A DNA stretch of 64,000 bases, from NCBI RefSeq assembly GCF_947623445.1, contig NC_135244.1, forward strand, positions 9,548,001-9,612,000, given 5' to 3'. Below the pieces are notes generated by a model, which worked only from the letters and a program-made list of their open reading frames with translations, did not search any database and was not told where the DNA came from. Below, piece by piece: positions 13,605-35,772 of this stretch. Position 1 is the stretch's first letter. Every line of letters begins with the position of its first letter. The translations under genes and the position numbers were made by a program. The stretch is from Clavelina lepadiformis (taxonomy: Eukaryota > Chordata > Ascidiacea > Aplousobranchia > Clavelinidae).

Positions 13605-15225
13605 TATGGAACGCCAACGCCGCAAAAATAGCAAAGTGTTAAATTGAATCGCAAGTATGCAGTTTATGTATTGTTTTCATAATTTGATTGGAAGGTTTTC
13701 AAACGTAACTTTATAGATTCAAATCACGAAACAACAAGCCAAACGTCAAAACCGGCATTCAAACGGGCTTTTCTGTGATTGCTGTTGCACGATTCATATG
13801 CCAATTATCAAAATGGTTTCGCAACATTTACAATTACACCACAGTTTTATAAACTTGATTTTTTTAAATCAAACCACGACATTTTAAGTCAGATATAAGA
13901 ACTGCAAAGCAAACTGGCTGTTGGCAAGTCACAATGCCTAATGGCAAATGGTATTTTCTTTAATCGGATTGCAGTTTTGTTAATCACATGTCGGTTTTTT
14001 GAATCATGTAACTTATACCATGAATTATAAAATGGCCAAATGATTGGAAATTAGTCTTCGTGAATTAAAAATGGGCGAACCAATTTGCAAAATACATGCG
14101 TGATTAAACAAACATGCATTCCTAAAAGCACTAAATGATTCTATAAAAGTACGTATGAATCGCATAACGTCTTCATGAATTGCCAAGTATAGATGGATCG
14201 GCAAATGTATAGATGATTTGCCAAAAGTACATGATTCGCTAAATGTACATGATTCGGTAAATGTATGCATGAATCCCCAAATGTACGTGATTCGACAAAT
14301 GCATGAATGAATCGCCAAATGTACGTGATTCGACAAATGCATGAATGAATCGCTAAATATACGTGATTCGATAAATGTATGCGTGAATCGCCAAATGTAC
14401 GTGATTCGATAAATGTATGCGTGAATCGCCAAATGTACATGATTCGATAAATGTATGCGTGAATCGCCAAATGTACATGATTCGATAAATGTATGCGTGA
14501 ATCGCCAAATGTACGTGATTCGATAAATGTATGCGTGAATCGCCAAATGTACATGATTCGATAAATGTATGCGTGAATCGCCAAATGTACATGATTCGAT
14601 AAATGTATGCGTGAATCGCCAAATGTACATGATTCGATAAATGTATGCGTGAATCGCCAAATGTACATGATTCGATAAATGTATGCGTGAATCGCCAAAT
14701 GTACATGATTCGATAAATGTATGCGTGAATCGCCAAATGTACATGATTCGATAAATGTATGCGTGAATCGCCAAATGTACATGATTCGATAAATGTATGC
14801 GTGAATCGCCAAATGTACATGATTCGATAAATGTATGGATGGTTCGTTGTTAGAGTGCGCCGCGCCAAGTGTGCAAAAATGTCTCTCTTGGGGAAAAAAT
14901 GTCTCTCTTGGGAATACCAAGAAGAAAAATCCTATTCTGGCTAGTCTTTCAAGAGCGCCTTTTAGCGTTTTATTAAGCAGCACATGAGGTTGGTTGGGTT
15001 TCTTTCATTTTGCAGTCAAAATTGCAGACCTGAATGGAAAGGAATTAACAATTGCAAGAGTGCAGGGTTGTAGTATTGGCTACTTAAGTATAACACGTTA
15101 TCAGTAACTTGCTTTTTGTAGACAAGTTGATTAAAGTTAAAGTCTGTTTGTCCATACAACGTTTTAAACAACCCCATTACAATTTCAAGAAATGGAAGGA
15201 TTTGGGAGGTAAGCCTACGTAAATT
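13605..15225 (+). repeat. Left terminal inverted repeat, outer copy
   Basis: 1,621 bp from the outer tip to the point where similarity to the right end stops. In order it holds the 19-bp tip, a region of scattered AATCACG/GATTCA half-units, the 38-bp array, a unique stretch, and a short exon with ATG (15192-15208) followed by a GTAAGC donor. Compared with the right repeat it lacks about 257 bp next to 14925. Confidence 0.88.
14230..14840. repeat. 38-bp subterminal tandem array (left, outer)
   Basis: About 16 units of 38 bp. Each unit is a diverged dimer: one half reads CGAATCATGTACATTTGG, the other CGATTCACGCATACATTTAT in the opposite-strand orientation. About 12 consecutive units are almost identical, and the proximal four are variants. 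Likely transposase-binding sites. The period is 3n+2 and the unit has no stop, so long meaningless ORFs appear in all three reverse frames. Confidence 0.93.
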
Positions 15226-16622
15226 CGGGGCAAATATCAAATGCATAACCACATGCAGAATGAATCTTCTTATGATGGAGATATTCAGTTTGCAAGTGAT
15301 CTTTGTTGTAGGTGTCATTTTTGCTGTACTTTACATCTGTTTTTGCGTTTTTACAGTGACTTGATGAACTTGTTGTCTACCGAAAATACACAACAGGAAG
15401 CCCCCTCAACCTCAGGAACAGTGCGAAGCACATTAAATAGATTATTTGGAAGGGTAAGGTTCAAGATAAAGGTTACAAGGTGTACTCTATTGATATGTAG
15501 GCCTAGGTTATATTCCAGTATACAATGAGACCTCGTTAATCCGAACCCCGAACAACCAAAATCCCCGCTATCCGACACAAAACTGCCGGGAACGGATTTG
15601 ATTCTATGCATTTACCCCTTTAATCCGGAAACCCCGCTTTCCGACTCCGACACAAAAGTTTTGGAACAAATATGCTAACAGCGTGGTCCAGCTTCCTTTC
15701 ATCGCTGGCCAAAATCAGAAGTTTTTTTTATCTTGCGGGCCAATGTTTTTAAATTAGAACTGAAGAACAATGTATTAAGAACAATGAAGAACGTATTACG
15801 TTTGTCGTGTTAAATGTAATTTGTTAGACTTGTGCTAAACGATGAATGTTAAGTTGTGAACGTATTATAATCGGAATCTGTACAGTTCCTACAATAAAGG
15901 ATTGTTTTCTAATAAACGGCATCTGTTAATCGTGATAGCTTTCGGCCAGTGCCAGTAGTAACACGTTAAGGTTAGAGATTTCTAACCGCACGCAACCACG
16001 GAGTCAGATCATTAATTCGGCAGGTAAATTAAGACCGAATAGCAAGTTAAACCAACCAGCGACCTCCGCAAATCAATAGCCGATTATCTACGCATAATAA
16101 CGTTGCGGTCTTTATTGATTCAAAAGTACATTACTGTACAGCATTGCGCTTTGTTTGTTCATCAACAGTAACCGACAACGCTTCCGCGGTCGCAAAAAAA
16201 ATATGTACAGTACATCGGTTGAGTGCGGCAATCTATTGAAGACATACTGTTGCAACTCAATCGTGCTATCAGCTTTTGATATCGCATTGCGCAAAGATTA
16301 GAAATATAAACCATCTCTTTAACCATTTCACCTCTTTATACTGTTTGTCATAGATTGCAAATGAAAATTGATAAATAATGCCATTAAGTTCTATTTCACG
16401 TTTTAAATTTTTATTTTAAGAGTTCAAATGCAAGAAGTCATCAAACACAACCTTATTGTAGACCGTCATGCACTAGAACGCAGAAGCATCCAAAAGGTGA
16501 TACTGTGGTTTTTTTAATACCACAATAATGCTAGAGTAGTAGTGAACATCATTGCATGGTTGTCGTTACATCAACTTACTGTGTTCAGTTTTTTCAGAAA
16601 AAACTTTTACTAAGGTAATGTG
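15192..16622 (+). pseudogene. HECT ligase gene, outer copy: 5' part, cut by the inner transposon
   Basis: Exons 1-3 (15192-15208, 15357-15453, 16421-16496) and the first 25 bases of exon 4 (16598-16622). They match the inner gene at +3018. The reading frame is broken off at the AATGTG insertion site, and the rest of the gene lies 10.3 kb away at 26923-29701. In this state the outer gene can hardly give a normal transcript. Confidence 0.85.
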
Positions 16623-18243
16623 TATGGAACGCCAACGCCGCAAAAATAGCAAAGTGTTAAATTGAATCGCAAGTATGCAGTTTATGTATTGTTTTCATAA
16701 TTTGATTGGAAGGTTTTCAAACGTAACTTTATAGATTCAAATCACGAAACAACAAGCCAAACGTCAAAACCGGCATTCAAACGGGCTTTTCTGTGATTGC
16801 TGTTGCACGATTCATATGCCAATTATCAAAATGGTTTCGCAACATTTACAATTACACCACAGTTTTATAAACTTGATTTTTTTAAATCAAACCACGACAT
16901 TTTAAGTCAGATATAAGAACTGCAAAGCAAACTGGCTGTTGGCAAGTCACAATGCCTAATGGCAAATGGTATTTTCTTTAATCGGATTGCAGTTTTGTTA
17001 ATCACATGTCGGTTTTTTGAATCATGTAACTTATACCATGAATTATAAAATGGCCAAATGATTGGAAATTAGTCTTCGTGAATTAAAAATGGGCGAACCA
17101 ATTTGCAAAATACATGCGTGATTAAACAAACATGCATTCCTAAAAGCACTAAATGATTCTATAAAAGTACGTATGAATCGCATAACGTCTTCATGAATTG
17201 CCAAGTATAGATGGATCGGCAAATGTATAGATGATTTGCCAAAAGTACATGATTCGCTAAATGTACATGATTCGGTAAATGTATGCATGAATCCCCAAAT
17301 GTACGTGATTCGACAAATGCATGAATGAATCGCCAAATGTACGTGATTCGACAAATGCATGAATGAATCGCTAAATATACGTGATTCGATAAATGTATGC
17401 GTGAATCGCCAAATGTACGTGATTCGATAAATGTATGCGTGAATCGCCAAATGTACATGATTCGATAAATGTATGCGTGAATCGCCAAATGTACATGATT
17501 CGATAAATGTATGCGTGAATCGCCAAATGTACGTGATTCGATAAATGTATGCGTGAATCGCCAAATGTACATGATTCGATAAATGTATGCGTGAATCGCC
17601 AAATGTACATGATTCGATAAATGTATGCGTGAATCGCCAAATGTACATGATTCGATAAATGTATGCGTGAATCGCCAAATGTACATGATTCGATAAATGT
17701 ATGCGTGAATCGCCAAATGTACATGATTCGATAAATGTATGCGTGAATCGCCAAATGTACATGATTCGATAAATGTATGCGTGAATCGCCAAATGTACAT
17801 GATTCGATAAATGTATGCGTGAATCGCCAAATGTACATGATTCGATAAATGTATGGATGGTTCGTTGTTAGAGTGCGCCGCGCCAAGTGTGCAAAAATGT
17901 CTCTCTTGGGGAAAAAATGTCTCTCTTGGGAATACCAAGAAGAAAAATCCTATTCTGGCTAGTCTTTCAAGAGCGCCTTTTAGCGTTTTATTAAGCAGCA
18001 CATGAGGTTGGTTGGGTTTCTTTCATTTTGCAGTCAAAATTGCAGACCTGAATGGAAAGGAATTAACAATTGCAAGAGTGCAGGGTTGTAGTATTGGCTA
18101 CTTAAGTATAACACGTTATCAGTAACTTGCTTTTTGTAGACAAGTTGATTAAAGTTAAAGTCTGTTTGTCCATACAACGTTTTAAACAACCCCATTACAA
18201 TTTCAAGAAATGGAAGGATTTGGGAGGTAAGCCTACGTAAATT
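16623..18243 (+). repeat. Left terminal inverted repeat, inner copy
   Basis: Same sequence as the outer left repeat, offset by 3018 bp, with the same array length and the same gap relative to the right repeat. The shared start exon is at 18210-18226. Confidence 0.88.
17248..17858. repeat. 38-bp subterminal tandem array (left, inner)
   Basis: Same unit number and the same variant order as the outer left array, 3018 bp further on. Tandem arrays normally drift in copy number quickly, so equal length points to a very recent common origin of the two copies. Confidence 0.93.
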
Positions 18244-21200
18244 CGGGGCAAATATCAAATGCATAACCACATGCAGAATGAATCTTCTTATGATGGAGAT
18301 ATTCAGTTTGCAAGTGATCTTTGTTGTAGGTGTCATTTTTGCTGTACTTTACATCTGTTTTTGCGTTTTTACAGTGACTTGATGAACTTGTTGTCTACCG
18401 AAAATACACAACAGGAAGCCCCCTCAACCTCAGGAACAGTGCGAAGCACATTAAATAGATTATTTGGAAGGGTAAGGTTCAAGATAAAGGTTACAAGGTG
18501 TACTCTATTGATATGTAGGCCTAGGTTATATTCCAGTATACAATGAGACCTCGTTAATCCGAACCCCGAACAACCAAAATCCCCGCTATCCGACACAAAA
18601 CTGCCGGGAACGGATTTGATTCTATGCATTTACCCCTTTAATCCGGAAACCCCGCTTTCCGACTCCGACACAAAAGTTTTGGAACAAATATGCTAACAGC
18701 GTGGTCCAGCTTCCTTTCATCGCTGGCCAAAATCAGAAGTTTTTTTTATCTTGCGGGCCAATGTTTTTAAATTAGAACTGAAGAACAATGTATTAAGAAC
18801 AATGAAGAACGTATTACGTTTGTCGTGTTAAATGTAATTTGTTAGACTTGTGCTAAACGATGAATGTTAAGTTGTGAACGTATTATAATCGGAATCTGTA
18901 CAGTTCCTACAATAAAGGATTGTTTTCTAATAAACGGCATCTGTTAATCGTGATAGCTTTCGGCCAGTGCCAGTAGTAACACGTTAAGGTTAGAGATTTC
19001 TAACCGCACGCAACCACGGAGTCAGATCATTAATTCGGCAGGTAAATTAAGACCGAATAGCAAGTTAAACCAACCAGCGACCTCCGCAAATCAATAGCCG
19101 ATTATCTACGCATAATAACGTTGCGGTCTTTATTGATTCAAAAGTACATTACTGTACAGCATTGCGCTTTGTTTGTTCATCAACAGTAACCGACAACGCT
19201 TCCGCGGTCGCAAAAAAAATATGTACAGTACATCGGTTGAGTGCGGCAATCTATTGAAGACATACTGTTGCAACTCAATCGTGCTATCAGCTTTTGATAT
19301 CGCATTGCGCAAAGATTAGAAATATAAACCATCTCTTTAACCATTTCACCTCTTTATACTGTTTGTCATAGATTGCAAATGAAAATTGATAAATAATGCC
19401 ATTAAGTTCTATTTCACGTTTTAAATTTTTATTTTAAGAGTTCAAATGCAAGAAGTCATCAAACACAACCTTATTGTAGACCGTCATGCACTAGAACGCA
19501 GAAGCATCCAAAAGGTGATACTGTGGTTTTTTTAATACCACAATAATGCTAGAGTAGTAGTGAACATCATTGCATGGTTGTCGTTACATCAACTTACTGT
19601 GTTCAGTTTTTTCAGAAAAAACTTTTACTAAGGTAATGTGTATTGTACCTGAATTGAACCAAGACAAGCCGCCGTCAGCTCAACAAAAGTTAGATTTGTT
19701 CAAATGTGGACTCGGCGAAAAAGCGGTTACATTTGCTGCTCTTGACACAAAAGAGGAATTGGACCAAAAGCTGAAAAGGTTCAGTGTTTTGTACTTCACA
19801 GTTTTGCTTATATGGCTTTAAAAGTAGTTTACTGCTTTAGTACTCTCATTAAAACTGTTTTCTACAGCGCTTTTCCGCCATTGTCTGAGTGTGGAGGGTA
19901 TTGTATATTGGTTAATTCTGGCAAGGGGCTGATAAATATATCTTTCGGACCTTGTGAAGCCATGATGCTTAAGAAGGCATTGGGTACAGGAAAGGTTTAT
20001 TTGAGGCCTATCCAAAAAAACATATCTCTTTCATCCTTTGAAAACAAATCGCAAAATGTAGAAAAATGCTTGACTTGTGGGGAAGTTATTTCACTTCCAG
20101 AAATGCAACAACATATCTTAGAAAAACACAAGGTATAAATGAAATTTGTTACTACGTCAGTACACTTCTACCATATGATATATTTAACTGCATCCAAGCA
20201 CTCTATGGTAGAACACGTCAGTCGAGCAATCAAGTAATTCAGTAATGTCTGAAGATGATGACAGTTTGCCCAGTTTCTCTCAAAGTTCCAACGCACAATC
20301 ATCCTCAGTGTCAGGTCCAGAGCAGTTCAATGCACCAGTAGATGTACCATCTATACTAATTAATGACAGTGACAATGAAGACATAATCGTTGGAGCAATT
20401 AATGACAAAATATCCGGAGATCCTTCTCACTCAGATGGTGCAGTCATCAGTTCTTTGATGGAAAAGCTGAGGAGCATAATGCAAGAATTTTAATATGTTA
20501 TACATTACATCAAAATATTATAATACTTTCAGAACAGAAGAGTTTTAGAAACATTGTTTTAAAAAAAATTTTTTGATTTCATAGTAGCTCAGCGAATTAG
20601 TAATACGTCAAGCAGATGTATTGTATTAGGCTATGTACTAGCACTAAAAGATAATACATGTTGATTATTTCATTAATGTTTAGGAAACATGATGAAGAAG
20701 AGCCTTGTCAAATTTTAAGATTGTATCAGAGTCTATTTCTTCAGGGTAGACAGTTAGATGCAGACGAAACTATGGCAGTACAAGATGGCGAGGTTTCCCA
20801 CATTTTTGTTTCCAGAGCAAATCCTCTGGAAACAGCTGCAGAAGAAATGTTGGGCTTGGAAAATATTAGGTTTCCTTTATGTGTTCAGTTTTATGGCGAA
20901 ACAGCATTGGATACTGGTGGTCCACGTAGAGACTTTTTCAGGTACAAATAAAGTGTAACTTGATGGCTTTTACCTGGTAGCTGGACCACATGAGATAATT
21001 TTTTTCTATTCGTAGATTAATGAAAGGATTTCTTGCAAGTGTTGTTTTAATTATTCAATTTGTTAAAAACTTTACTTGCAGAATAATGATCCAAGCTATG
21101 ATGGAGAAAAATATTTTCGAAGAGAAAGAAAACAACGTAACTCTGTGCAAAAATGAAAGTCTTGTGCATAAACAATGGTATTATGTATGTGGACTTGTTG

Positions 21201-22419
21201 TAGGTAAATTTGAGTTCCCATGTGTAACTATTGTATGTTTATGTGTTTCTCAGAAACAGTTGTAATTTTTTTAGGTCTTAGTTGCTTGGAAGGCGGAGAT
21301 AATATCCATTTAAAGGAAGAGTTATTGACGGAAATTGGTACCGATATATATACAAAACAATTTCAGCAAGGATTGTGCAAATGTGGAATAATGAAAGTAC
21401 TTACATCTGATTAGAAATTTTATAACATATATTATACAAGTCTGATAGAATATGAAGCTTCAGCTAATATGTTTCACAATACACAGATGCGTCCATTGTA
21501 ATGCGTGTTCTCATGTTGTTATAACTAGCCCCAATCCATACATGCCTTCTTGAAATGCGACACGTTTTGTACATCGTAACAATACAGCCTAATTTCTGAT
21601 AAAGTTGCTAATGACTTGAAACTATTCTGCTATGCGTGTTAATATAGACAAGTTTGTTATGGTGTTTCTTGCTTTTTAAGCTTCTTACAGCATTTCCGGT
21701 ATTGAAATATATCTGGACTAATCCAGCAAACCGAATTGTTACGGTTGGGAAGTTGTTGAATAATTTTAAAGTGAACTTCTCTCCGGAAGGGAGCAATAGT
21801 AGAAAGGATGAGGAGAGGGCATACAGCATCTTCGTAAGCTATGTCCGTGAAGTTGCAGGTGAACATGATATTTAAGCAGTCGTAAGTTTGAGGCAAAATG
21901 TCAAGCAGAAGTAATTGATAAAAAGTGATTCATTATTAATTTATTATTGATGGCACTTTCTATGTTTAGCTATTCTGCGCTCTTTGAAGTTAAATATTTG
22001 TAAGCATAGCATACCGACAACTAGTTTTAACTTCATCAATCTGTTAAAGTTAATTGATGTGCGGCCGTTGTAAAGATGATGTCGTTTTTGGCGTATTAAG
22101 GCTGTTGTATTGTAAATAGATATCCAAAACAGTAAACATAAACGTTCATTTAGGTGCTGGAAGAAAAGACTTTATTTCCATCAATTTGCAGTCAATCTTG
22201 GCTTACATTACTGGCAATTCGTCAATACCTGTGCTTGGATTTAACCCCCCTGCAACAATCTCATTTCAAGCAGACCATGGTGCGTTTCTACCGCAAGCTC
22301 ACACATGCATCAACCAGTTTGTGCTGAGTAGAGTACAACATGGTGCAAATCCGGAGACAGTAAAACGAGGCCTTGACTGGGCATTTTCGTCGATGGACTT
22401 TGGAGCAGAAAATGTGTGA
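18210..22419 (+). CDS. Transposon-borne HECT E3 ubiquitin ligase (G2E3-like), inner copy
   Basis: Predicted exons: 18210-18226, 18375-18471, 19439-19514, 19616-19778, 19868-20132, about 20212-20490, 20684-20941, 21082-21203, 21275-21396, 21681-21858, 22154-22419. Phases agree at all junctions except exon 6/7, whose exact joint I could not settle. The start exon (MEGFG) lies in the left inverted repeat. In order the roughly 610-aa product has a Ser/Thr/Gln-rich leader, a basic stretch, a region like fish G2E3-like proteins (LGEKAVTF; GKVYLRPIQKNISL), a CCHH zinc finger (CLTCGEVISLPEMQQHILEK, then H), and an acidic linker with SILINDSDNED. The HECT N-lobe carries VQFYGETALDTGGPRRDFF, and the C-lobe ends with LPQAHTCINQFVL. 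The Cys in HTC is the expected ubiquitin-accepting residue. The region after GLSCLEGG is shorter than I remember for the family. Its role in transposition is unknown. Confidence 0.8.
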
Positions 22420-22473
22420 CATAATTGGGACTCGGTTTATTTGTCAGTGTAAAGTAATTGAACGCATTACATT

Positions 22474-25115
22474 TCAATTTTCAAGTAAAGCATTGCAAAC
22501 AAGTTTCGCTACCAGGTATACTGCAGGATCATACCAATCTTTTGCTTTAATATGCAATGTCGCAGAGTGCAGTAAGCTTAACTGTTCTTCATTGAGAGGG
22601 CATATGACCCTTGCAACATTAATTGTGGCGTTTTCTGTACTTGCGTTATCGTCCATCTACAAGGATAAAGTTTTATGCTAAATTAGTCTACCTATTTACA
22701 GCAAGACGTATTGTCTGAAGTGTAAAAAATTCACCTGATAATCTGTCATATAGTTACTTAAGTCTTCCTCTTTCATTAACTGGAGCAACCCTGCAACATA
22801 TAGTTTTTTAGGACTTCGATTGTTTTCTGTTCGCAGGGGATGATGATTCCACATGGAAGTAAATTTGGCAAGGGCTTCATTTATGACGTCTTTGTAGCAA
22901 TAATGTAAACAAAAAATATCAACTTCATTTTCCACATCCAACGTCTCATTATTTTCCAATTTGTAGAACAGCCGGTGGAAGTTAATAGCCTGAAAAGACA
23001 AGTTGTGTCAATATCAGAGTTGAAAGACAAACTTACGTTACAATGAGTATTGCCATCTATCACTATAAATTCATTGTTGTGAAAATAGCAGTAATATTCT
23101 GGAATAGCCTAGAGTTTTATAACACTGCAATAATACTAAACATGTAAACCTACTGCTAAGAAACAAAAAAACTTTACCACAGATTCAAAGACATCTCTCC
23201 ATAAGCGCTCAATGCGGGAGTTATGCACACTTTTTCCAGTTATAAAGCTACCCCTTGACAGACCACGTAACGGATGTTCCAGCATATATCGTGCCACTTC
23301 ATAATTTTCCATTCCTTTATCGGATCTGACCTATATAAAATAAAAAAACAAACATATCCCCTGATTATTATGATTTTCCAAAAATGTAATAACATTTCAA
23401 TCTTACTCGTGATGGAAGGCCATACGTGTGTACACCATTTTTGAAATGCCTGACAACTGTTGCTGCCCTGTTGTTGTCCTGGCAGCTAAGATAAACCACC
23501 AACCTTGAAAAGCCGTCAATGCAGCCATGTATAACAAAACGCCATCAACAAAAAAAATAGTTGCAAAGGCAGCTTCGCAAACAGAAACCAGATTAACAAC
23601 ATTACAGAATAATGTCGTTCCAAATGTTCTATATGCCTGTACCTTATCAGCTTGTGGTGTGAGTCAATATGCCACAATGCTAGCGGTGATCTCACACTAT
23701 ACACACGTCGTTGTATACATTTCACTTTTCGCCGTTCCACTCCAGTTGGATCAACCTTTTTCACAGATTTTCTCAAACGACCACGTTGCACACAAACACC
23801 TTGACTCTTTAAGGCCGCTTGTATGGCCTTATAACCTTTACGGACAGAAAGGTATAGTGCTCCGATGAGAATAGAAATCAAGTACACACATGTAAGAACA
23901 CAATTTACAGCATGCAGCAGGGGTGGGCAAACTTGTTCAATGAAAGAGTCACTTGCGGAAAAATATGAACAGCAGCGAGCCGCAAAATCAGTAATGATTG
24001 TCAATTTGGTTGATATACTATTAGTAGTCATTTTGGGATAATACTTTTTAGCTAGAAGACCCATAAAAAACATGGTGGATAAATACACAATTAATGTATC
24101 GATTCAGGAATCTGGCCGGCCAAGTACTTTATTTTCTCATATCAGGCCCGCCGACCGAAAAAGTTGCCCGCCCCCGACAGAGAGTATAGAATCTATATCT
24201 GAAAACAATGTCGGATTCTATGTCTAATGTTACGTCATAAACGAAATGTTGGCCTAAATAAACAAAACAATAGACAGAAACGTTCATAAACGGTAGCTAC
24301 CTACTCTTGGTAGCCTTTACAATTTTTTTGAAATTTTACGGTTCGACCAGAAGAGCCACAAAAAATATGCCGGAGAGCCGCATGCGGCTCGTGAGCCCCA
24401 GTTTGCCCACGTCGGCATGTAGCATAGCTGCAGTGAAAACTTACCAACTCAAGTTTTACAACAACTGAAAAGCAACTTCACGGCTTGCCGCAAAATAACC
24501 CTCCGAAAGAGCATGTGAATAACCAAGGATAACTTCATAACGCGAAGCAATGTAATCGGTTCTTACCTGAATTTGGAAAATGTTTAGTTAGGTTGAAAAC
24601 TTTTTCATCCAACTCTTCATCATCCAATATGGTATATTTGTGTGAGACTGCCAAGTCAAATTCATTCATCCTATATTCAACAGTGCGTTTGCTGACATTT
24701 AATGTTGATGCAATTTCATGGATATTAAAGTCTTGAGCTAGCAAACACAAACAAGCAAATTCAAATATAATTCAAGAAGCTGCTTAACCCCATCAATCGT
24801 TGATTTGGACCAAAAGTATAACGTTGACTTGTCTGGCACTTTATTTAATGGCGTATTTATAAAGCGCACTGAAAACATACTTTCCGATAGGGGTGCCATA
24901 CCAATCCTAATCACAGAGTTCAAATACCTAATAGAAATTCAATTTGTTCTTGGGTAATAGGTATCCTTTTGCGTCCAGGTGTCGTTCTTGCTACGTCTAC
25001 CTCTTGCACGCTGCCACTGGAAACGTAACCGCAGTGACTACAAAAATGTACCAACGTCTACTGTTGCTTATAACACACGATAATTTACGTAGGCTTACCT
25101 CCCAAATCCTTCCAT
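22474..25115 (-). CDS. Integrase-fold DDE transposase, inner copy
   Basis: Predicted exons: 25099-25115, 24928-25037, 24567-24737, 23643-23835, 23407-23545, 23178-23330, optional 23037-23108, 22735-22989, 22474-22656. The product is about 406 aa (430 with the optional exon). The first exon (MEGFG) lies in the right inverted repeat. Next come [18 protein letters not shown] and a helix-turn-helix ([19 protein letters not shown]). The catalytic core has D1 in [15 protein letters not shown]2 in VRSDKGMEN and E in [12 protein letters not shown]2 and E are separated by 36 residues, as in integrases. The C-terminal part carries [19 protein letters not shown] and [13 protein letters not shown]. It resembles the integrase-core proteins common in fish and cnidarian genomes. 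The start of exon 5 lacks a visible AG acceptor. AATAAA on this strand at 22437-22442 follows the stop by 31 bp. Confidence 0.82.
23919..24414. mobile_element. hAT-type MITE in the transposase intron (inner copy)
   Basis: Left end CAGGGGTGGGCAAACTT, right end CAGTTTGCCCACGTCG (partly decayed). It is flanked by GCATGCAG (23911-23918) and GCATGTAG (24415-24422), an 8-bp duplication with one difference. It contains GAGCCGCATGCGGCTC. It lies wholly inside intron 3 of the integrase gene, so it should be spliced out. Confidence 0.85.
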
Positions 25116-26916
25116 TTCTTGAAATTGTAATGGGTTTGTTTAAAACGTTGTATGGACAAACAGACTTTAACTTTAATCAACTTGTCTACAAAAAGCAAGT
25201 TACTGATAACGTGTTATACTTAAGTAGCCAATACTACAACCCTGCACTCTTGCAATTGTTAATTCCTTTCCATTCAGGTCTGCAATTTTGACTGCAAAAT
25301 GAAAGAAACCCAACCAACCTCATGTGCTGCTTAATAAAACGCTAAAAGGCGCTCTTGAAAGACTAGCCAGAATAGGATATACCAGCCTACCACGGCACTG
25401 CGGTACTGGCCCAACTTAATGATCACATTTCAAATAGAACATAACCTAACGCGTGTAGTGTTGAAATAACTTCTAAAGAAACATCCCATTTTTCAAAGCG
25501 AACAAAACCAAGCTTACGCTTATTCCTGATTGCAAAGTATTTTGCACTGACTGTACACGACTATACGGCAACTTTCGGCCTGGCCGAAACATAAGCTATT
25601 AAGAAAACTTTCTGTTCTGTCAAAATCCCTTTTTCTTCTTGGTATTCCCAAGAGAGACATTTTTTCCCCAAGAGAGACATTTTTGCACACTTGGCGCGGC
25701 GCACTCTAACAACGAACCATCCATACATTTATCGAATCATGTACATTTGGCGATTCACGCATACATTTATCGAATCATGTACATTTGGCGATTCACGCAT
25801 ACATTTATCGAATCACGTACATTTGGCGATTCACGCATACATTTGTCGAATCACGTACATTTGGCGATTCACGCATACATTTATCGAATCACGTACATTT
25901 GGCGAATCATGCATACATTTGTCGAATCATGTACATTTGGCGATTCATGCATACATTTATCGAATCATGTACATTTGGCGATTCATTCATGCATTTGTCG
26001 AATCACGTACATTTGGCGATTCACGCATACATTTATCGAATCACGTATATTTAGCGATTCATTCATGCATTTGTCGAATCATGTACATTTGGCGATTCAT
26101 TCATGCATTTGTCGAATCACGTACATTTGGCGATTCATGCATACATTTACCGAATCATGTACATTTGGCGATTCATGCATACATTTACCGAATCATGTAC
26201 ATTTGGCGATTCATGCATGCATTTACCGAATCATGTACATTTGGCGATTCATACATGCATTTACCGAATCATGTACATTTAGCGATTCATGCACTTTTGG
26301 CAAATCATGTATACATTTGCCGATCCATCTATACTTGGCAATTCATGAACACATTATGCGATTCATACGTAATTTTATAGAATCATTTAGTGCTTTTAGG
26401 AATGCATGTTTGTTTAATCACGTATGTATTTTGCAAATTGGTTCGCCCATTTTTAATTCACGAAGACTAATTTCCAATCATTTCGCCATTTTATAATTCA
26501 TGGTATAAGTTACATGATTCAAAAAACCGACATGTGATTAACAAAACTGCAATCCGATTAAAGAAAATACCATTTGCCATTAGGCATTGTAACTTGCCAA
26601 CAGCCAGTTTGCTTTGCAGTTCTTATATCTGACTTAAAATGTCGTGGTTTGATTTAAAAAAATCAAGTTTATAAAACTGTGGTGTAATTGTAAATGTTGC
26701 GAAACCATTTTGATAATTGGCATATGAATCGTGCAACAGCAATCACAGAAAAGCCCGTTTGAATGCCGGTTTTGACGTTTGGTTTGTTGTTTCGTGATTT
26801 GAATCTATAAAGTTACGTTTGAAAACCTTCCAATCAAATTATGAAAACAATACATAAATTGCATACTTGCGATTCAATTTAACACTTTGCTATTTTTGCG
26901 GCGTTGGCGTTCCATA
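25082..26916 (-). repeat. Right terminal inverted repeat, inner copy
   Basis: 1,835 bp. In reverse complement it follows the left repeat through the start exon (25099-25115) to the tip. It carries about 257 bp at 25379-25635 that the left repeat lacks. Most of that stretch is also present in the older right end at 34604-35772, so the left repeat has lost it. The 38-bp array here is more varied than on the left. Confidence 0.88.
25728..26293. repeat. 38-bp subterminal tandem array (right, inner)
   Basis: About 15 units of the same 38-bp dimer in inverted orientation. Units are heterogeneous (ATGCATACATTTACC, TTCATGCATTTGTCG and other forms), unlike the near-uniform left array. Left and right arrays have therefore been homogenised separately. 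Confidence 0.92.
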
Positions 26917-26922
26917 AATGTG

Positions 26923-29701
26923 TATTGTACCTGAATTGAACCAAGACAAGCCGCCGTCAGCTCAACAAAAGTTAGATTTGTTCAAATGTGGACTCGGCGA
27001 AAAAGCGGTTACATTTGCTGCTCTTGACACAAAAGAGGAATTGGACCAAAAGCTGAAAAGGTTCAGTGTTTTGTACTTCACAGTTTTGCTTATATGGCTT
27101 TAAAAGTAGTTTACTGCTTTAGTACTCTCATTAAAACTGTTTTCTACAGCGCTTTTCCGCCATTGTCTGAGTGTGGAGGGTATTGTATATTGGTTAATTC
27201 TGGCAAGGGGCTGATAAATATATCTTTCGGACCTTGTGAAGCCATGATGCTTAAGAAGGCATTGGGTACAGGAAAGGTTTATTTGAGGCCTATCCAAAAA
27301 AACATATCTCTTTCATCCTTTGAAAACAAATCGCAAAATGTAGAAAAATGCTTGACTTGTGGGGAAGTTATTTCACTTCCAGAAATGCAACAACATATCT
27401 TAGAAAAACACAAGGTATAAATGAAATTTGTTACTACGTCAGTACACTTCTACCATATGATATATTTAACTGCATCCAAGCACTCTATGGTAGAACACGT
27501 CAGTCGAGCAATCAAGTAATTCAGTAATGTCTGAAGATGATGACAGTTTGCCCAGTTTCTCTCAAAGTTCCAACGCACAATCATCCTCAGTGTCAGGTCC
27601 AGAGCAGTTCAATGCACCAGTAGATGTACCATCTATACTAATTAATGACAGTGACAATGAAGACATAATCGTTGGAGCAATTAATGACAAAATATCCGGA
27701 GATCCTTCTCACTCAGATGGTGCAGTCATCAGTTCTTTGATGGAAAAGCTGAGGAGCATAATGCAAGAATTTTAATATGTTATACATTACATCAAAATAT
27801 TATAATACTTTCAGAACAGAAGAGTTTTAGAAACATTGTTTTAAAAAAAATTTTTTGATTTCATAGTAGCTCAGCGAATTAGTAATACGTCAAGCAGATG
27901 TATTGTATTAGGCTATGTACTAGCACTAAAAGATAATACATGTTGATTATTTCATTAATGTTTAGGAAACATGATGAAGAAGAGCCTTGTCAAATTTTAA
28001 GATTGTATCAGAGTCTATTTCTTCAGGGTAGACAGTTAGATGCAGACGAAACTATGGCAGTACAAGATGGCGAGGTTTCCCACATTTTTGTTTCCAGAGC
28101 AAATCCTCTGGAAACAGCTGCAGAAGAAATGTTGGGCTTGGAAAATATTAGGTTTCCTTTATGTGTTCAGTTTTATGGCGAAACAGCATTGGATACTGGT
28201 GGTCCACGTAGAGACTTTTTCAGGTACAAATAAAGTGTAACTTGATGGCTTTTACCTGGTAGCTGGACCACATGAGATAATTTTTTTCTATTCGTAGATT
28301 AATGAAAGGATTTCTTGCAAGTGTTGTTTTAATTATTCAATTTGTTAAAAACTTTACTTGCAGAATAATGATCCAAGCTATGATGGAGAAAAATATTTTC
28401 GAAGAGAAAGAAAACAACGTAACTCTGTGCAAAAATGAAAGTCTTGTGCATAAACAATGGTATTATGTATGTGGACTTGTTGTAGGTAAATTTGAGTTCC
28501 CATGTGTAACTATTGTATGTTTATGTGTTTCTCAGAAACAGTTGTAATTTTTTTAGGTCTTAGTTGCTTGGAAGGCGGAGATAATATCCATTTAAAGGAA
28601 GAGTTATTGACGGAAATTGGTACCGATATATATACAAAACAATTTCAGCAAGGATTGTGCAAATGTGGAATAATGAAAGTACTTACATCTGATTAGAAAT
28701 TTTATAACATATATTATACAAGTCTGATAGAATATGAAGCTTCAGCTAATATGTTTCACAATACACAGATGCGTCCATTGTAATGCGTGTTCTCATGTTG
28801 TTATAACTAGCCCCAATCCATACATGCCTTCTTGAAATGCGACACGTTTTGTACATCGTAACAATACAGCCTAATTTCTGATAAAGTTGCTAATGACTTG
28901 AAACTATTCTGCTATGCGTGTTAATATAGACAAGTTTGTTATGGTGTTTCTTGCTTTTTAAGCTTCTTACAGCATTTCCGGTATTGAAATATATCTGGAC
29001 TAATCCAGCAAACCGAATTGTTACGGTTGGGAAGTTGTTGAATAATTTTAAAGTGAACTTCTCTCCGGAAGGGAGCAATAGTAGAAAGGATGAGGAGAGG
29101 GCATACAGCATCTTCGTAAGCTATGTCCGTGAAGTTGCAGGTGAACATGATATTTAAGCAGTCGTAAGTTTGAGGCAAAATGTCAAGCAGAAGTAATTGA
29201 TAAAAAGTGATTCATTATTAATTTATTATTGATGGCACTTTCTATGTTTAGCTATTCTGCGCTCTTTGAAGTTAAATATTTGTAAGCATAGCATACCGAC
29301 AACTAGTTTTAACTTCATCAATCTGTTAAAGTTAATTGATGTGCGGCCGTTGTAAAGATGATGTCGTTTTTGGCGTATTAAGGCTGTTGTATTGTAAATA
29401 GATATCCAAAACAGTAAACATAAACGTTCATTTAGGTGCTGGAAGAAAAGACTTTATTTCCATCAATTTGCAGTCAATCTTGGCTTACATTACTGGCAAT
29501 TCGTCAATACCTGTGCTTGGATTTAACCCCCCTGCAACAATCTCATTTCAAGCAGACCATGGTGCGTTTCTACCGCAAGCTCACACATGCATCAACCAGT
29601 TTGTGCTGAGTAGAGTACAACATGGTGCAAATCCGGAGACAGTAAAACGAGGCCTTGACTGGGCATTTTCGTCGATGGACTTTGGAGCAGAAAATGTGTG
29701 A
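26923..29701 (+). pseudogene. HECT ligase gene, outer copy: 3' part
   Basis: Remainder of exon 4 (to 27060) and exons 5-11 (27150-27414 through 29436-29701), identical in translation to the inner gene at -7282. It includes the zinc finger, both HECT lobes and the catalytic-Cys motif HTCINQF. It has lost its start exon and promoter to the insertion. An internal ATG (MCIVPELNQ) begins at 26918, directly after the duplicated target, so a short N-truncated product is conceivable but unsupported. Confidence 0.85.
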
Positions 29702-29755
29702 CATAATTGGGACTCGGTTTATTTGTCAGTGTAAAGTAATTGAACGCATTACATT

Positions 29756-32397
29756 TCAATTTTCAAGTAAAGCATTGCAAACAAGTTTCGCTACCAGGTA
29801 TACTGCAGGATCATACCAATCTTTTGCTTTAATATGCAATGTCGCAGAGTGCAGTAAGCTTAACTGTTCTTCATTGAGAGGGCATATGACCCTTGCAACA
29901 TTAATTGTGGCGTTTTCTGTACTTGCGTTATCGTCCATCTACAAGGATAAAGTTTTATGCTAAATTAGTCTACCTATTTACAGCAAGACGTATTGTCTGA
30001 AGTGTAAAAAATTCACCTGATAATCTGTCATATAGTTACTTAAGTCTTCCTCTTTCATTAACTGGAGCAACCCTGCAACATATAGTTTTTTAGGACTTCG
30101 ATTGTTTTCTGTTCGCAGGGGATGATGATTCCACATGGAAGTAAATTTGGCAAGGGCTTCATTTATGACGTCTTTGTAGCAATAATGTAAACAAAAAATA
30201 TCAACTTCATTTTCCACATCCAACGTCTCATTATTTTCCAATTTGTAGAACAGCCGGTGGAAGTTAATAGCCTGAAAAGACAAGTTGTGTCAATATCAGA
30301 GTTGAAAGACAAACTTACGTTACAATGAGTATTGCCATCTATCACTATAAATTCATTGTTGTGAAAATAGCAGTAATATTCTGGAATAGCCTAGAGTTTT
30401 ATAACACTGCAATAATACTAAACATGTAAACCTACTGCTAAGAAACAAAAAAACTTTACCACAGATTCAAAGACATCTCTCCATAAGCGCTCAATGCGGG
30501 AGTTATGCACACTTTTTCCAGTTATAAAGCTACCCCTTGACAGACCACGTAACGGATGTTCCAGCATATATCGTGCCACTTCATAATTTTCCATTCCTTT
30601 ATCGGATCTGACCTATATAAAATAAAAAAACAAACATATCCCCTGATTATTATGATTTTCCAAAAATGTAATAACATTTCAATCTTACTCGTGATGGAAG
30701 GCCATACGTGTGTACACCATTTTTGAAATGCCTGACAACTGTTGCTGCCCTGTTGTTGTCCTGGCAGCTAAGATAAACCACCAACCTTGAAAAGCCGTCA
30801 ATGCAGCCATGTATAACAAAACGCCATCAACAAAAAAAATAGTTGCAAAGGCAGCTTCGCAAACAGAAACCAGATTAACAACATTACAGAATAATGTCGT
30901 TCCAAATGTTCTATATGCCTGTACCTTATCAGCTTGTGGTGTGAGTCAATATGCCACAATGCTAGCGGTGATCTCACACTATACACACGTCGTTGTATAC
31001 ATTTCACTTTTCGCCGTTCCACTCCAGTTGGATCAACCTTTTTCACAGATTTTCTCAAACGACCACGTTGCACACAAACACCTTGACTCTTTAAGGCCGC
31101 TTGTATGGCCTTATAACCTTTACGGACAGAAAGGTATAGTGCTCCGATGAGAATAGAAATCAAGTACACACATGTAAGAACACAATTTACAGCATGCAGC
31201 AGGGGTGGGCAAACTTGTTCAATGAAAGAGTCACTTGCGGAAAAATATGAACAGCAGCGAGCCGCAAAATCAGTAATGATTGTCAATTTGGTTGATATAC
31301 TATTAGTAGTCATTTTGGGATAATACTTTTTAGCTAGAAGACCCATAAAAAACATGGTGGATAAATACACAATTAATGTATCGATTCAGGAATCTGGCCG
31401 GCCAAGTACTTTATTTTCTCATATCAGGCCCGCCGACCGAAAAAGTTGCCCGCCCCCGACAGAGAGTATAGAATCTATATCTGAAAACAATGTCGGATTC
31501 TATGTCTAATGTTACGTCATAAACGAAATGTTGGCCTAAATAAACAAAACAATAGACAGAAACGTTCATAAACGGTAGCTACCTACTCTTGGTAGCCTTT
31601 ACAATTTTTTTGAAATTTTACGGTTCGACCAGAAGAGCCACAAAAAATATGCCGGAGAGCCGCATGCGGCTCGTGAGCCCCAGTTTGCCCACGTCGGCAT
31701 GTAGCATAGCTGCAGTGAAAACTTACCAACTCAAGTTTTACAACAACTGAAAAGCAACTTCACGGCTTGCCGCAAAATAACCCTCCGAAAGAGCATGTGA
31801 ATAACCAAGGATAACTTCATAACGCGAAGCAATGTAATCGGTTCTTACCTGAATTTGGAAAATGTTTAGTTAGGTTGAAAACTTTTTCATCCAACTCTTC
31901 ATCATCCAATATGGTATATTTGTGTGAGACTGCCAAGTCAAATTCATTCATCCTATATTCAACAGTGCGTTTGCTGACATTTAATGTTGATGCAATTTCA
32001 TGGATATTAAAGTCTTGAGCTAGCAAACACAAACAAGCAAATTCAAATATAATTCAAGAAGCTGCTTAACCCCATCAATCGTTGATTTGGACCAAAAGTA
32101 TAACGTTGACTTGTCTGGCACTTTATTTAATGGCGTATTTATAAAGCGCACTGAAAACATACTTTCCGATAGGGGTGCCATACCAATCCTAATCACAGAG
32201 TTCAAATACCTAATAGAAATTCAATTTGTTCTTGGGTAATAGGTATCCTTTTGCGTCCAGGTGTCGTTCTTGCTACGTCTACCTCTTGCACGCTGCCACT
32301 GGAAACGTAACCGCAGTGACTACAAAAATGTACCAACGTCTACTGTTGCTTATAACACACGATAATTTACGTAGGCTTACCTCCCAAATCCTTCCAT
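29756..32397 (-). CDS. Integrase-fold DDE transposase, outer copy
   Basis: Same exons as the inner gene at +7282 (32381-32397, 32210-32319, 31849-32019, 30925-31117, 30689-30827, 30460-30612, optional 30319-30390, 30017-30271, 29756-29938), with identical translations. The nested insertion does not touch it, since its start exon is in the outer right repeat. Catalytic D, D and E motifs are present. If the gene is active, the outer copy could still supply transposase although its HECT gene is split. Confidence 0.82.
31201..31696. mobile_element. hAT-type MITE in the transposase intron (outer copy)
   Basis: The same insertion at +7282 with the same imperfect target duplication (GCATGCAG/GCATGTAG). 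The MITE entered the ancestor of both transposon copies. Confidence 0.85.
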
Positions 32398-34198
32398 TTC
32401 TTGAAATTGTAATGGGTTTGTTTAAAACGTTGTATGGACAAACAGACTTTAACTTTAATCAACTTGTCTACAAAAAGCAAGTTACTGATAACGTGTTATA
32501 CTTAAGTAGCCAATACTACAACCCTGCACTCTTGCAATTGTTAATTCCTTTCCATTCAGGTCTGCAATTTTGACTGCAAAATGAAAGAAACCCAACCAAC
32601 CTCATGTGCTGCTTAATAAAACGCTAAAAGGCGCTCTTGAAAGACTAGCCAGAATAGGATATACCAGCCTACCACGGCACTGCGGTACTGGCCCAACTTA
32701 ATGATCACATTTCAAATAGAACATAACCTAACGCGTGTAGTGTTGAAATAACTTCTAAAGAAACATCCCATTTTTCAAAGCGAACAAAACCAAGCTTACG
32801 CTTATTCCTGATTGCAAAGTATTTTGCACTGACTGTACACGACTATACGGCAACTTTCGGCCTGGCCGAAACATAAGCTATTAAGAAAACTTTCTGTTCT
32901 GTCAAAATCCCTTTTTCTTCTTGGTATTCCCAAGAGAGACATTTTTTCCCCAAGAGAGACATTTTTGCACACTTGGCGCGGCGCACTCTAACAACGAACC
33001 ATCCATACATTTATCGAATCATGTACATTTGGCGATTCACGCATACATTTATCGAATCATGTACATTTGGCGATTCACGCATACATTTATCGAATCACGT
33101 ACATTTGGCGATTCACGCATACATTTGTCGAATCACGTACATTTGGCGATTCACGCATACATTTATCGAATCACGTACATTTGGCGAATCATGCATACAT
33201 TTGTCGAATCATGTACATTTGGCGATTCATGCATACATTTATCGAATCATGTACATTTGGCGATTCATTCATGCATTTGTCGAATCACGTACATTTGGCG
33301 ATTCACGCATACATTTATCGAATCACGTATATTTAGCGATTCATTCATGCATTTGTCGAATCATGTACATTTGGCGATTCATTCATGCATTTGTCGAATC
33401 ACGTACATTTGGCGATTCATGCATACATTTACCGAATCATGTACATTTGGCGATTCATGCATACATTTACCGAATCATGTACATTTGGCGATTCATGCAT
33501 GCATTTACCGAATCATGTACATTTGGCGATTCATACATGCATTTACCGAATCATGTACATTTAGCGATTCATGCACTTTTGGCAAATCATGTATACATTT
33601 GCCGATCCATCTATACTTGGCAATTCATGAACACATTATGCGATTCATACGTAATTTTATAGAATCATTTAGTGCTTTTAGGAATGCATGTTTGTTTAAT
33701 CACGTATGTATTTTGCAAATTGGTTCGCCCATTTTTAATTCACGAAGACTAATTTCCAATCATTTCGCCATTTTATAATTCATGGTATAAGTTACATGAT
33801 TCAAAAAACCGACATGTGATTAACAAAACTGCAATCCGATTAAAGAAAATACCATTTGCCATTAGGCATTGTAACTTGCCAACAGCCAGTTTGCTTTGCA
33901 GTTCTTATATCTGACTTAAAATGTCGTGGTTTGATTTAAAAAAATCAAGTTTATAAAACTGTGGTGTAATTGTAAATGTTGCGAAACCATTTTGATAATT
34001 GGCATATGAATCGTGCAACAGCAATCACAGAAAAGCCCGTTTGAATGCCGGTTTTGACGTTTGGTTTGTTGTTTCGTGATTTGAATCTATAAAGTTACGT
34101 TTGAAAACCTTCCAATCAAATTATGAAAACAATACATAAATTGCATACTTGCGATTCAATTTAACACTTTGCTATTTTTGCGGCGTTGGCGTTCCATA
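32364..34198 (-). repeat. Right terminal inverted repeat, outer copy
   Basis: Identical in content to the inner right repeat, offset by 7282 bp. Start exon at 32381-32397, 38-bp array at about 33010-33575, tip at 34198. Confidence 0.88.
33010..33575. repeat. 38-bp subterminal tandem array (right, outer)
   Basis: Same unit count and order as the inner right array, offset by 7282 bp. Confidence 0.92.
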
Positions 34199-34603
34199 CA
34201 CTAAAGTAAACGAAGAAAAAAATGACGACGCTTCCTTGACAGTTCGTCATTTAGCTGCGTTGGTATCAAAACGTACTTTGCAAGATTGGCAGAAAAATGA
34301 TGCAAATCTGCGTGAACAACGTGAAGAGACTATGCTTCGTGGACGAGGTTTAAAGACAGAGAGGAAGCGGCTCGGAATGTGCGTTTTATGCGTACTCATT
34401 TACTCGTACTCTTGTGCGTTTTATGCGATCAGTGCCAATTACTGCAGTATAGCACAGGTGCAATTCATTTATTACGCAACACTGCAGTATTTTAAATGCG
34501 TTGTTTGTCTTTACGCATGACCATGAAACGAACAATCGATTTTCCGCTTAATTCGGCCAAAAGTGAGCGGAACCAAAGTGTCCGAATTAAGCGGAGTCGA
34601 CTG
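34199..34603. mobile_element. Pogo/Tigger transposon fragment
   Basis: The right end reads ATTAAGCGGAGTCGACTG followed by TA (34604-34605). In reverse complement this is CAGTCGACTCCGCTTAATTC, a typical pogo/Tigger tip. A reading frame from 34200 encodes LAALVSKRTLQDWQKND followed by GRGLKTERKRLG, resembling the CENP-B/pogo DNA-binding helix region. The left half is missing, because the outer transposon's right end abuts it directly. Confidence 0.7.
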
Positions 34604-35772
34604 TAGAACATAACCTAACGCGTGTTTTGTTGAAATAACTTCTAAAGAAACATCCCATTCTTCATTGCGAACAAAACTAAGCTTACGCTTATTGCTGATC
34701 GCAAAGTATTTTGCACTGACGGTACACGGTAACTTTCGGCCTGCCCGAAACATAGGCTATTCAGAAAACTTTGTCTTCTCTCAAAATCCCTTTTTCTTCT
34801 TGGTATCCCCGAGAGAGACATTTTTTCCCCAATAGAGACATTTTTGCACACTTGGCGCGGCGCACTCTAACAACGAACCATCCATACATTTGTCGATTCA
34901 CGTACATTTTGCGATTCACGCATACATTCATCGAATCACGTACATTTGGCGATTCACGCATACATTTGTCGAATCACGTACATTTGGCGATTCACGCATA
35001 CATTTACCGAATCACGTACATTTGGCGATTCATGCATGCATTTACCGAATCATGTACATTTGGCGATTCATGCATGCATTTACCGAATCATGTACATTTG
35101 GCGATTCATGCATGCATTTACCGAATCATGTACATTTGGCGATTCATGCACTTTTGGCAAATCATCTATACATTTGCCGATCCATCTATACTTGGCAATT
35201 CATGAAGACGTTATGTGATTCATACGTACTTTTATAGAATCATTTAGTGCTTTTAGGAATGCATGTTTGTTTAATCACGTATGTATTTTGCAAATTGGTT
35301 CGCCCATTTTTAATTCACGAAGACTAATTTCCAATCATTTGGCCATTTTATAATTCATGGTATAAGTTACATGATTCAAAAAACCGACATGTGATTAACA
35401 AAACTGCAATCCGATTAAAGAAAATACCATTTGCCATTAGGCATTGTAACTTGCCAACAGCCAGTTTGCTTTGCAGTTGTTATATCTGACTTGAAATGTC
35501 GTGGTTTGATTTAAAAAATCAAGTTTATAAAACTGTGGTGTAATTGTAAATGTTGCGAAACCATTTTGATAATTGCCATATGAATCGTGCAACAGCAATC
35601 ACAGAAAAGACCGTTTGATTGCCGGCTTTGGCGTTTGGCTTGTTGTTTCGTGATTTGAATCTATAAAATTACGTTTCAAAACCTTCCAATCAAATTATGA
35701 AAACAAAACATAATTTGCAAAGTTCCCATTCCAATTAACATTTTGCTATTTTTGCGGCGTTGGCGTTCCATA
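34604..35772 (-). mobile_element. Older right end of the same HECT/integrase transposon family
   Basis: From GAACATAACCTAACGCGTG to the tip GGCGTTGGCGTTCCATA it follows the inner right repeat from about 25435 onward, with scattered substitutions. The 38-bp array is shorter (about 34890-35150). It lacks any gene. The pogo fragment at its left inserted at a TA that in the intact copies reads AAATAGAACATAAC. The right flank is CTAATA, with no partner found on the left. Confidence 0.85.

Follow-up and report, generated by a model that had tools for sequence, protein, structure and literature searches.

Among transposons, the closest described precedent is maize MuDR, whose transposase belongs to a different superfamily from that of the element reported here. 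The likeness, as far as the MuDR passages at hand go, lies in convergent genes with starts in or near the repeats. In those passages the two MuDR genes converge, and their promoters and sites of transcription initiation are placed in the terminal inverted repeats (TIRs) or just interior to them; a difference from the present case is that no shared start codon or splice donor is described (PMC3440606). The second system to be compared is the IS3EU superfamily, for which the passages at hand give TA..TA ends (TAYGG..CCRTA, stated for fungal members), a 6-bp target site duplication (TSD) and an integrase-like DDE transposase; in fungal members with a TET/JBP gene, the transposase and alpha-kinase genes are oppositely oriented (PMC10045372, PMC12730594). 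HECT does not occur in the main text of either of these two papers, and a start exon in the repeats is unmentioned in their passages at hand. An exact-word search of the open-licence literature found nothing on IS3EU together with HECT, nor on repeats that extend into a start codon and splice donor. In herpes simplex, which is a virus and not a transposon, the genes US1 and US12 (ICP22/ICP47) share a promoter and a spliced leader that are located in inverted repeats, and the shared exon is noncoding. This leader precedent was not confirmed in the literature passages searched.

The stretch of Clavelina lepadiformis DNA that was analysed, called the window below, is 64,000 nt long and corresponds to C5:9548001-9612000 of the 209.06-Mb assembly used for genome searches; of one set of locus alignments only the plus-strand rows (L010, L028) were used. 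The window contains a DNA transposon of IS3EU type, which carries two genes in convergent orientation, one HECT-like (+) and one encoding an rva_4 DDE transposase (−). The complete, inner element occupies 16623-26916 with exact ends, its TIRs ending at TATGGAACGCC (16623) and GGCGTTCCATA (26916). These termini read TATGG...CCATA and fit TAYGG..CCRTA, and a 6-bp duplication, AATGTG, lies on both sides of the element at 16617-16622 and 26917-26922. The element thus has the same ends, TSD length and integrase-like DDE transposase as IS3EU/GingerRoot, in so far as the available passages describe that group, and judged by its termini, duplication and rva_4 match it fits the superfamily. The inner copy was inserted into an identical outer copy, of which 13605-16622 (+) is the interrupted left part and 26917-34198 (−) the right part. 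There were 0 mismatches in 3,018 nt on the left and 7,282 nt on the right, so that the nested copies are identical across 10,300 bp, and the uninterrupted target site can be read from 19635 onwards, inside the element's own sequence. Nesting of identical copies with a 6-bp duplication indicates recent mobility. The flanks of the outer element show no duplication (TCTATC and CACTAA). A further right end at 35772 closes the stretch 34199-35772, which has a short 38-bp array of its own (34879-35185) and is perhaps a partial third copy.

The left TIR (16623-18243, +) consists of the end, a 38-bp array, a 5′-UTR block, the start exon and 17 nt of intron 1. The right TIR (25082-26916, −) has in addition a block of ∼250 bp (about 25379-25632) without a left counterpart, which sits upstream of the transposase start exon. 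The innermost block common to both arms measures 297 nt and is 100% identical after rounding, with one mismatch in the 5′-UTR by alignment; identity of the arms stops 17 nt beyond the start exon, within intron 1. In all three sequences checked, a conserved TRTAACACG block precedes the leader ATG by 89-103 nt, and the interval contains no other ATG. The window element may follow a MuDR-like plan with the promoters of both genes inside the repeats; the features seen that bear on this are the position of exon 1 and this block. Subterminal arrays of 38-bp units are found at 17250-17855 and 25718-26293 and in the outer copies, at about 15-16 units per TIR; among the pairings listed, identity between left and right arrays is 86-96%, which is lower than in the 5′-UTR/exon block. 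Sixteen places in the genome (L012-L027) share with the 297-nt block no more than its outer 107-117 nt, with 94-98% identity, and are probably short non-autonomous elements that lack the start exon.

We believe it somewhat probable that both convergent genes use one TIR-borne start exon, with the same leader and the same phase. The preliminary description had placed a 17-nt exon in each TIR and proposed it as a shared coding start. The exon, ATGGAAGGATTTGGGAG followed by GTAAGC, is indeed exact in both TIRs, as the start exon of HECT at 18210-18226 (+) and of the transposase at 25115-25099 (−). It is exact again in the arms of the outer element, where it forms that element's own start exons at 15192-15208 (+) and 32397-32381 (−). 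A scan of the window allowing ≤3 mismatches returned these four matches, all exact, and none of 100 shuffles reached four. The leader encodes MEGFG, contributes two bases to a serine codon and enters exon 2 of both genes in identical phase, giving a complete frame of 613 aa with the HECT exons and of 399 aa with the transposase exons, so both proposals hold in the gene models. The context of the leader ATG, AAGAAATGG, is a strong one. By reasoning, the phase would fit both genes by chance about 1 time in 9, and the evidential weight consequently rests on relatives of the element.

The transposase model (399 aa, 22474-25115, −) has eight exons, at 25115-25099, 25016-24928, 24737-24567, 23835-23643, 23545-23407, 23330-23178, 22989-22735 and 22656-22474, and with the leader its frame is open to the stop at 22474. 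Joining the leader to the acceptor at 25016 yields MEGFGSGSVQEV..., and joining it to that at 25037 yields an alternative start of exon 2, whose 13 noted residues are not written out here; both are in frame because they are 21 nt apart. The preliminary description had chosen 25037, probably wrongly. In both diverged copies described below, a 25037-type acceptor meets a TAA within exon 2 (by eye) and a 25016-type acceptor stays in frame, for which reason 25016 is the more likely acceptor and exon 2 is given as 24928-25016. Exons 1-6, joined with acceptor 25037, matched Pfam rva_4 at 1.2e-54, an integrase-like DDE transposase by profile match. This was the best of the 11 Pfam families listed at E ≤ 0.1, among which there was no Mutator (MULE) transposase. 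Helix-turn-helix families matched as well, below their cut-offs. No ATG lies upstream of exon 2 in frame before a stop in the window transposase, which leaves the leader ATG as the sole in-frame upstream start. The exon-5 acceptor in the window is TG (23546-23547) instead of AG, and AG is present in both diverged copies; the two window copies may thus make no full-length transposase. Intron 3 contains an insert (about 23918-24413) whose ends, CAGGGGTGGGCAAACT, presumably recall a hAT element.

Relatives of the exon were searched for in the genome with a pattern allowing ≤2 mismatches. Since the reversed control gave 15 matches against 11, only the seven matches with 0-1 mismatch (four in the window, three outside) were counted. 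One copy on C8 with two mismatches was accepted because its flanks align; the other three two-mismatch candidates were dropped, control matches outnumbering real ones. The exon with its flanks was thus found outside the window at C5:15693184, C5:15707126, C2:9145537 and C8:3551034, in all four places on the transposase side; it is kept, with changes, in loci L005, L006 and L008. Transposase exon 2 is retained in two of the four places, L005 (C5:15.69 Mb) and L006 (C5:15.71 Mb). There the exon reads ATGGAACCAATTGGGAG (three changes) or ...TTGAGAG (four changes) with the donor unchanged, and both copies retain the ATG, the 17-nt length, GAG|GTAAGC and the frame. Through the second acceptor, TTTCCAG|TGG, they continue into MEPIGSGSVQEV... 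and MEPIESGSVQEV..., respectively. The preliminary description held that a leader out of frame in related elements would count against it; on the transposase side, both relatives that keep exon 2 have the leader in frame via this second acceptor. Exons 1-6 are in frame and total 762 nt in all three sequences. Between the window and L005, coding exons 1-7 had no gaps in 1,017 nt, exon 8 being left out of the count because it is not alignable in L005, while all eight noncoding segments (the 5′ repeat stretch and seven introns) had gaps, 25 in 1,224 aligned nt, or 19 in 931 nt without the poorly aligning intron 3. The dN/dS ratio over exons 1-6 was 0.29 for the same pair. Exon 1 itself differs from that of L005 at three of 17 bases, in two codons, with both amino acids changed; the leader codons show no amino acid constraint, and the absence of gaps over 17 nt says little by itself. 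Both L005 and L006 have a further ATG, in frame, inside the presumed transposase intron 1 (by eye). From these comparisons, the leader exon is well supported by sequence on the transposase side.

The HECT model (613 aa, 18210-22419, +) has 11 exons, at 18210-18226, 18375-18471, 19439-19514, 19607-19778, 19868-20132, 20212-20480, 20684-20941, 21082-21203, 21275-21396, 21681-21858 and 22154-22419. Joined to exon 2 (18375-18471) at the acceptor 18375, the leader reads MEGFGSDLMNLLS... and the frame is open to the stop at 22419. The hand-joined C-terminal stretch matched the HECT domain (PF00632) at 4.1e-10 over profile positions 193-282 of 306 only. Intron 6 has a GC donor (20481-20482), where two relatives on C3 have GT (by eye). 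A search with the HECT N-terminal region found no HECT 5′ end outside the window: the best candidates were 13 matches, eight in the window and five at C3:23.6-23.7 Mb, the latter confined to internal residues 121-209. Locus L072, which holds two of these five, contains broken internal pieces that show neither an exon pattern nor a HECT 5′ end. Further matches to the HECT C-terminus lie at C8:2628179 and, weakly, at C7:15174200, and there was no HECT match in the 10 kb beside the transposase at C5:15.69 Mb.

For HECT, then, the leader has a competitor that we consider rather unlikely but the best of those at hand, namely that the leader is real for the transposase only, that HECT starts at an ATG of its own (18259, 18271 or 18382) and that the left exon is a passive product of homogenisation. 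Upstream of HECT exon 2 the frame continues without a stop past the acceptor as far as 18241 and includes ATGs at 18259 and 18271, with another at 18382 inside exon 2, so HECT could start without the leader; and since the TIRs are homogenised, the left copy of the exon need not be selected. However, the stretch before exon 2 scored −0.09 per codon, between the 75% and 95% quantiles of intron segments (−0.21 and −0.01, with a median of −0.40) and below three true exons (0.25, 0.34 and 0.39, all of which belonged to the training set), and so does no more than lean towards noncoding. Also against this competitor, an acceptor with a long T-rich run is present at 18374. Moreover, a transcript that begins in the repeat would meet the leader ATG before any other, in a frame that closes after six codons if unspliced. 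In the reading that we favour, HECT would use the leader too.

Two other readings bear on both genes. The exon could be a noncoding 5′-UTR exon with a short upstream frame (MEGFGR and a stop unless spliced), whose phase matches by chance. The chance agreement estimated above and the closing of the six-codon frame by the donor's TAA would both suit such an exon. However, in the window transposase model the leader ATG is the only one before the helix-turn-helix-like stretch, and the frame is retained in L005 and L006 despite an altered exon and intron, so that we hold a noncoding exon to be improbable. Finally, that there is no functional arrangement at all, the elements being decayed and the repeats overlapping the gene starts by accident, is in our view very improbable, for although the TG and GC splice sites of the window genes and the large deletions in the C2, C5:15.69, C1:2.15 and C1:1.51 Mb copies are signs of decay, the recent mobility of the identical nested copies, two gene models open to their stops and a dN/dS of 0.29 stand against it.

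Both C1 copies just mentioned are without the stretch of exons 1-3, and in the C2 copy the left repeat is kept only to the 5′-UTR, after which the last HECT exon adjoins. Because the left exon of the C2 copy is deleted, homogenisation was compared over the 5′-UTR block and not over the exon. Across 119 alignment columns from the 5′ portion of the TIR, the left and right repeats of the window copy were 100% alike, as were those of the C2 copy, and identity between the two copies was 83%; the sample, two copies, is small. Concerted evolution of the left and right TIR within a copy is therefore supported for the 5′-UTR block only. It had been suggested that this process keeps expression of the two proteins matched. 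Matched protein levels would go beyond this likeness of the repeats; downstream of the leader, splicing, RNA stability and translation could differ between HECT and the transposase.

The genome also contains a second IS3EU-like family, which was read across at locus L073 and has parts in L049-L056, L058-L060, L075 and L076. Its transposase matched rva_4 at 1.2e-30 and its TIRs are about 515-550 bp long. The partner gene in L073 is convergent and HECT-like by eye only, Pfam assigning no family to its last exon. Candidate start exons at L073 847-913 and 4636-4570 are zinc-ribbon-like (Zn_Ribbon_1 at 5.6e-4 and 3.2e-5, both below the Pfam cut-off), and both lie outside the TIRs. This family thus has the same convergent plan as the window element, but its candidate gene starts are outside the repeats, so the shared leader is likely to be a derived trait of one lineage. 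We also considered the stretches before both exon-2 acceptors of the window element as relics of second-family start exons; this was rejected, since 298, 81, 314 and 470 of 500 shuffles gave DNA alignment scores as good. The second family is present in many near-identical copies, and those at L075 and L076 are short, only about 4 kb end to end.

Returning to the shared leader, the way in which it would act can be laid out from the arrangement of the repeats. Since the TIR ends just inside the 17-nt coding exon and its donor, each repeat would be a cassette of 5′-UTR, start codon and splice donor, with a putative promoter. Transcription from the predicted promoter in each repeat would give an RNA in which the leader ATG precedes any other start codon, and splicing as modelled would join one leader to exon 2 of either HECT or the transposase in the same phase. 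Because the donor supplies a stop (AGG TAA), unspliced RNA from either end would make only a six-residue peptide, MEGFGR, terminated in the donor. It is possible, and we put it forward tentatively, that the repeat is a portable promoter/start-codon/donor cassette that provides a shared N-terminal leader and gates both proteins by splicing. If this is true, homogenisation of the repeats keeps leader, phase and gate alike for both genes, and a lone stranded repeat could initiate host exons, in the manner of a natural gene trap. The TIRs of DNA transposons are mostly viewed as transposase binding sites and at best as promoters, whereas here they seem to enter the coding sequence. The DNA that has to remain matched for transposition would also determine where two unrelated proteins start, in which phase they are read and how their first splice is made. 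Such an arrangement would couple the transposase to a ubiquitin-ligase-like partner and would limit the evolution of the repeats.
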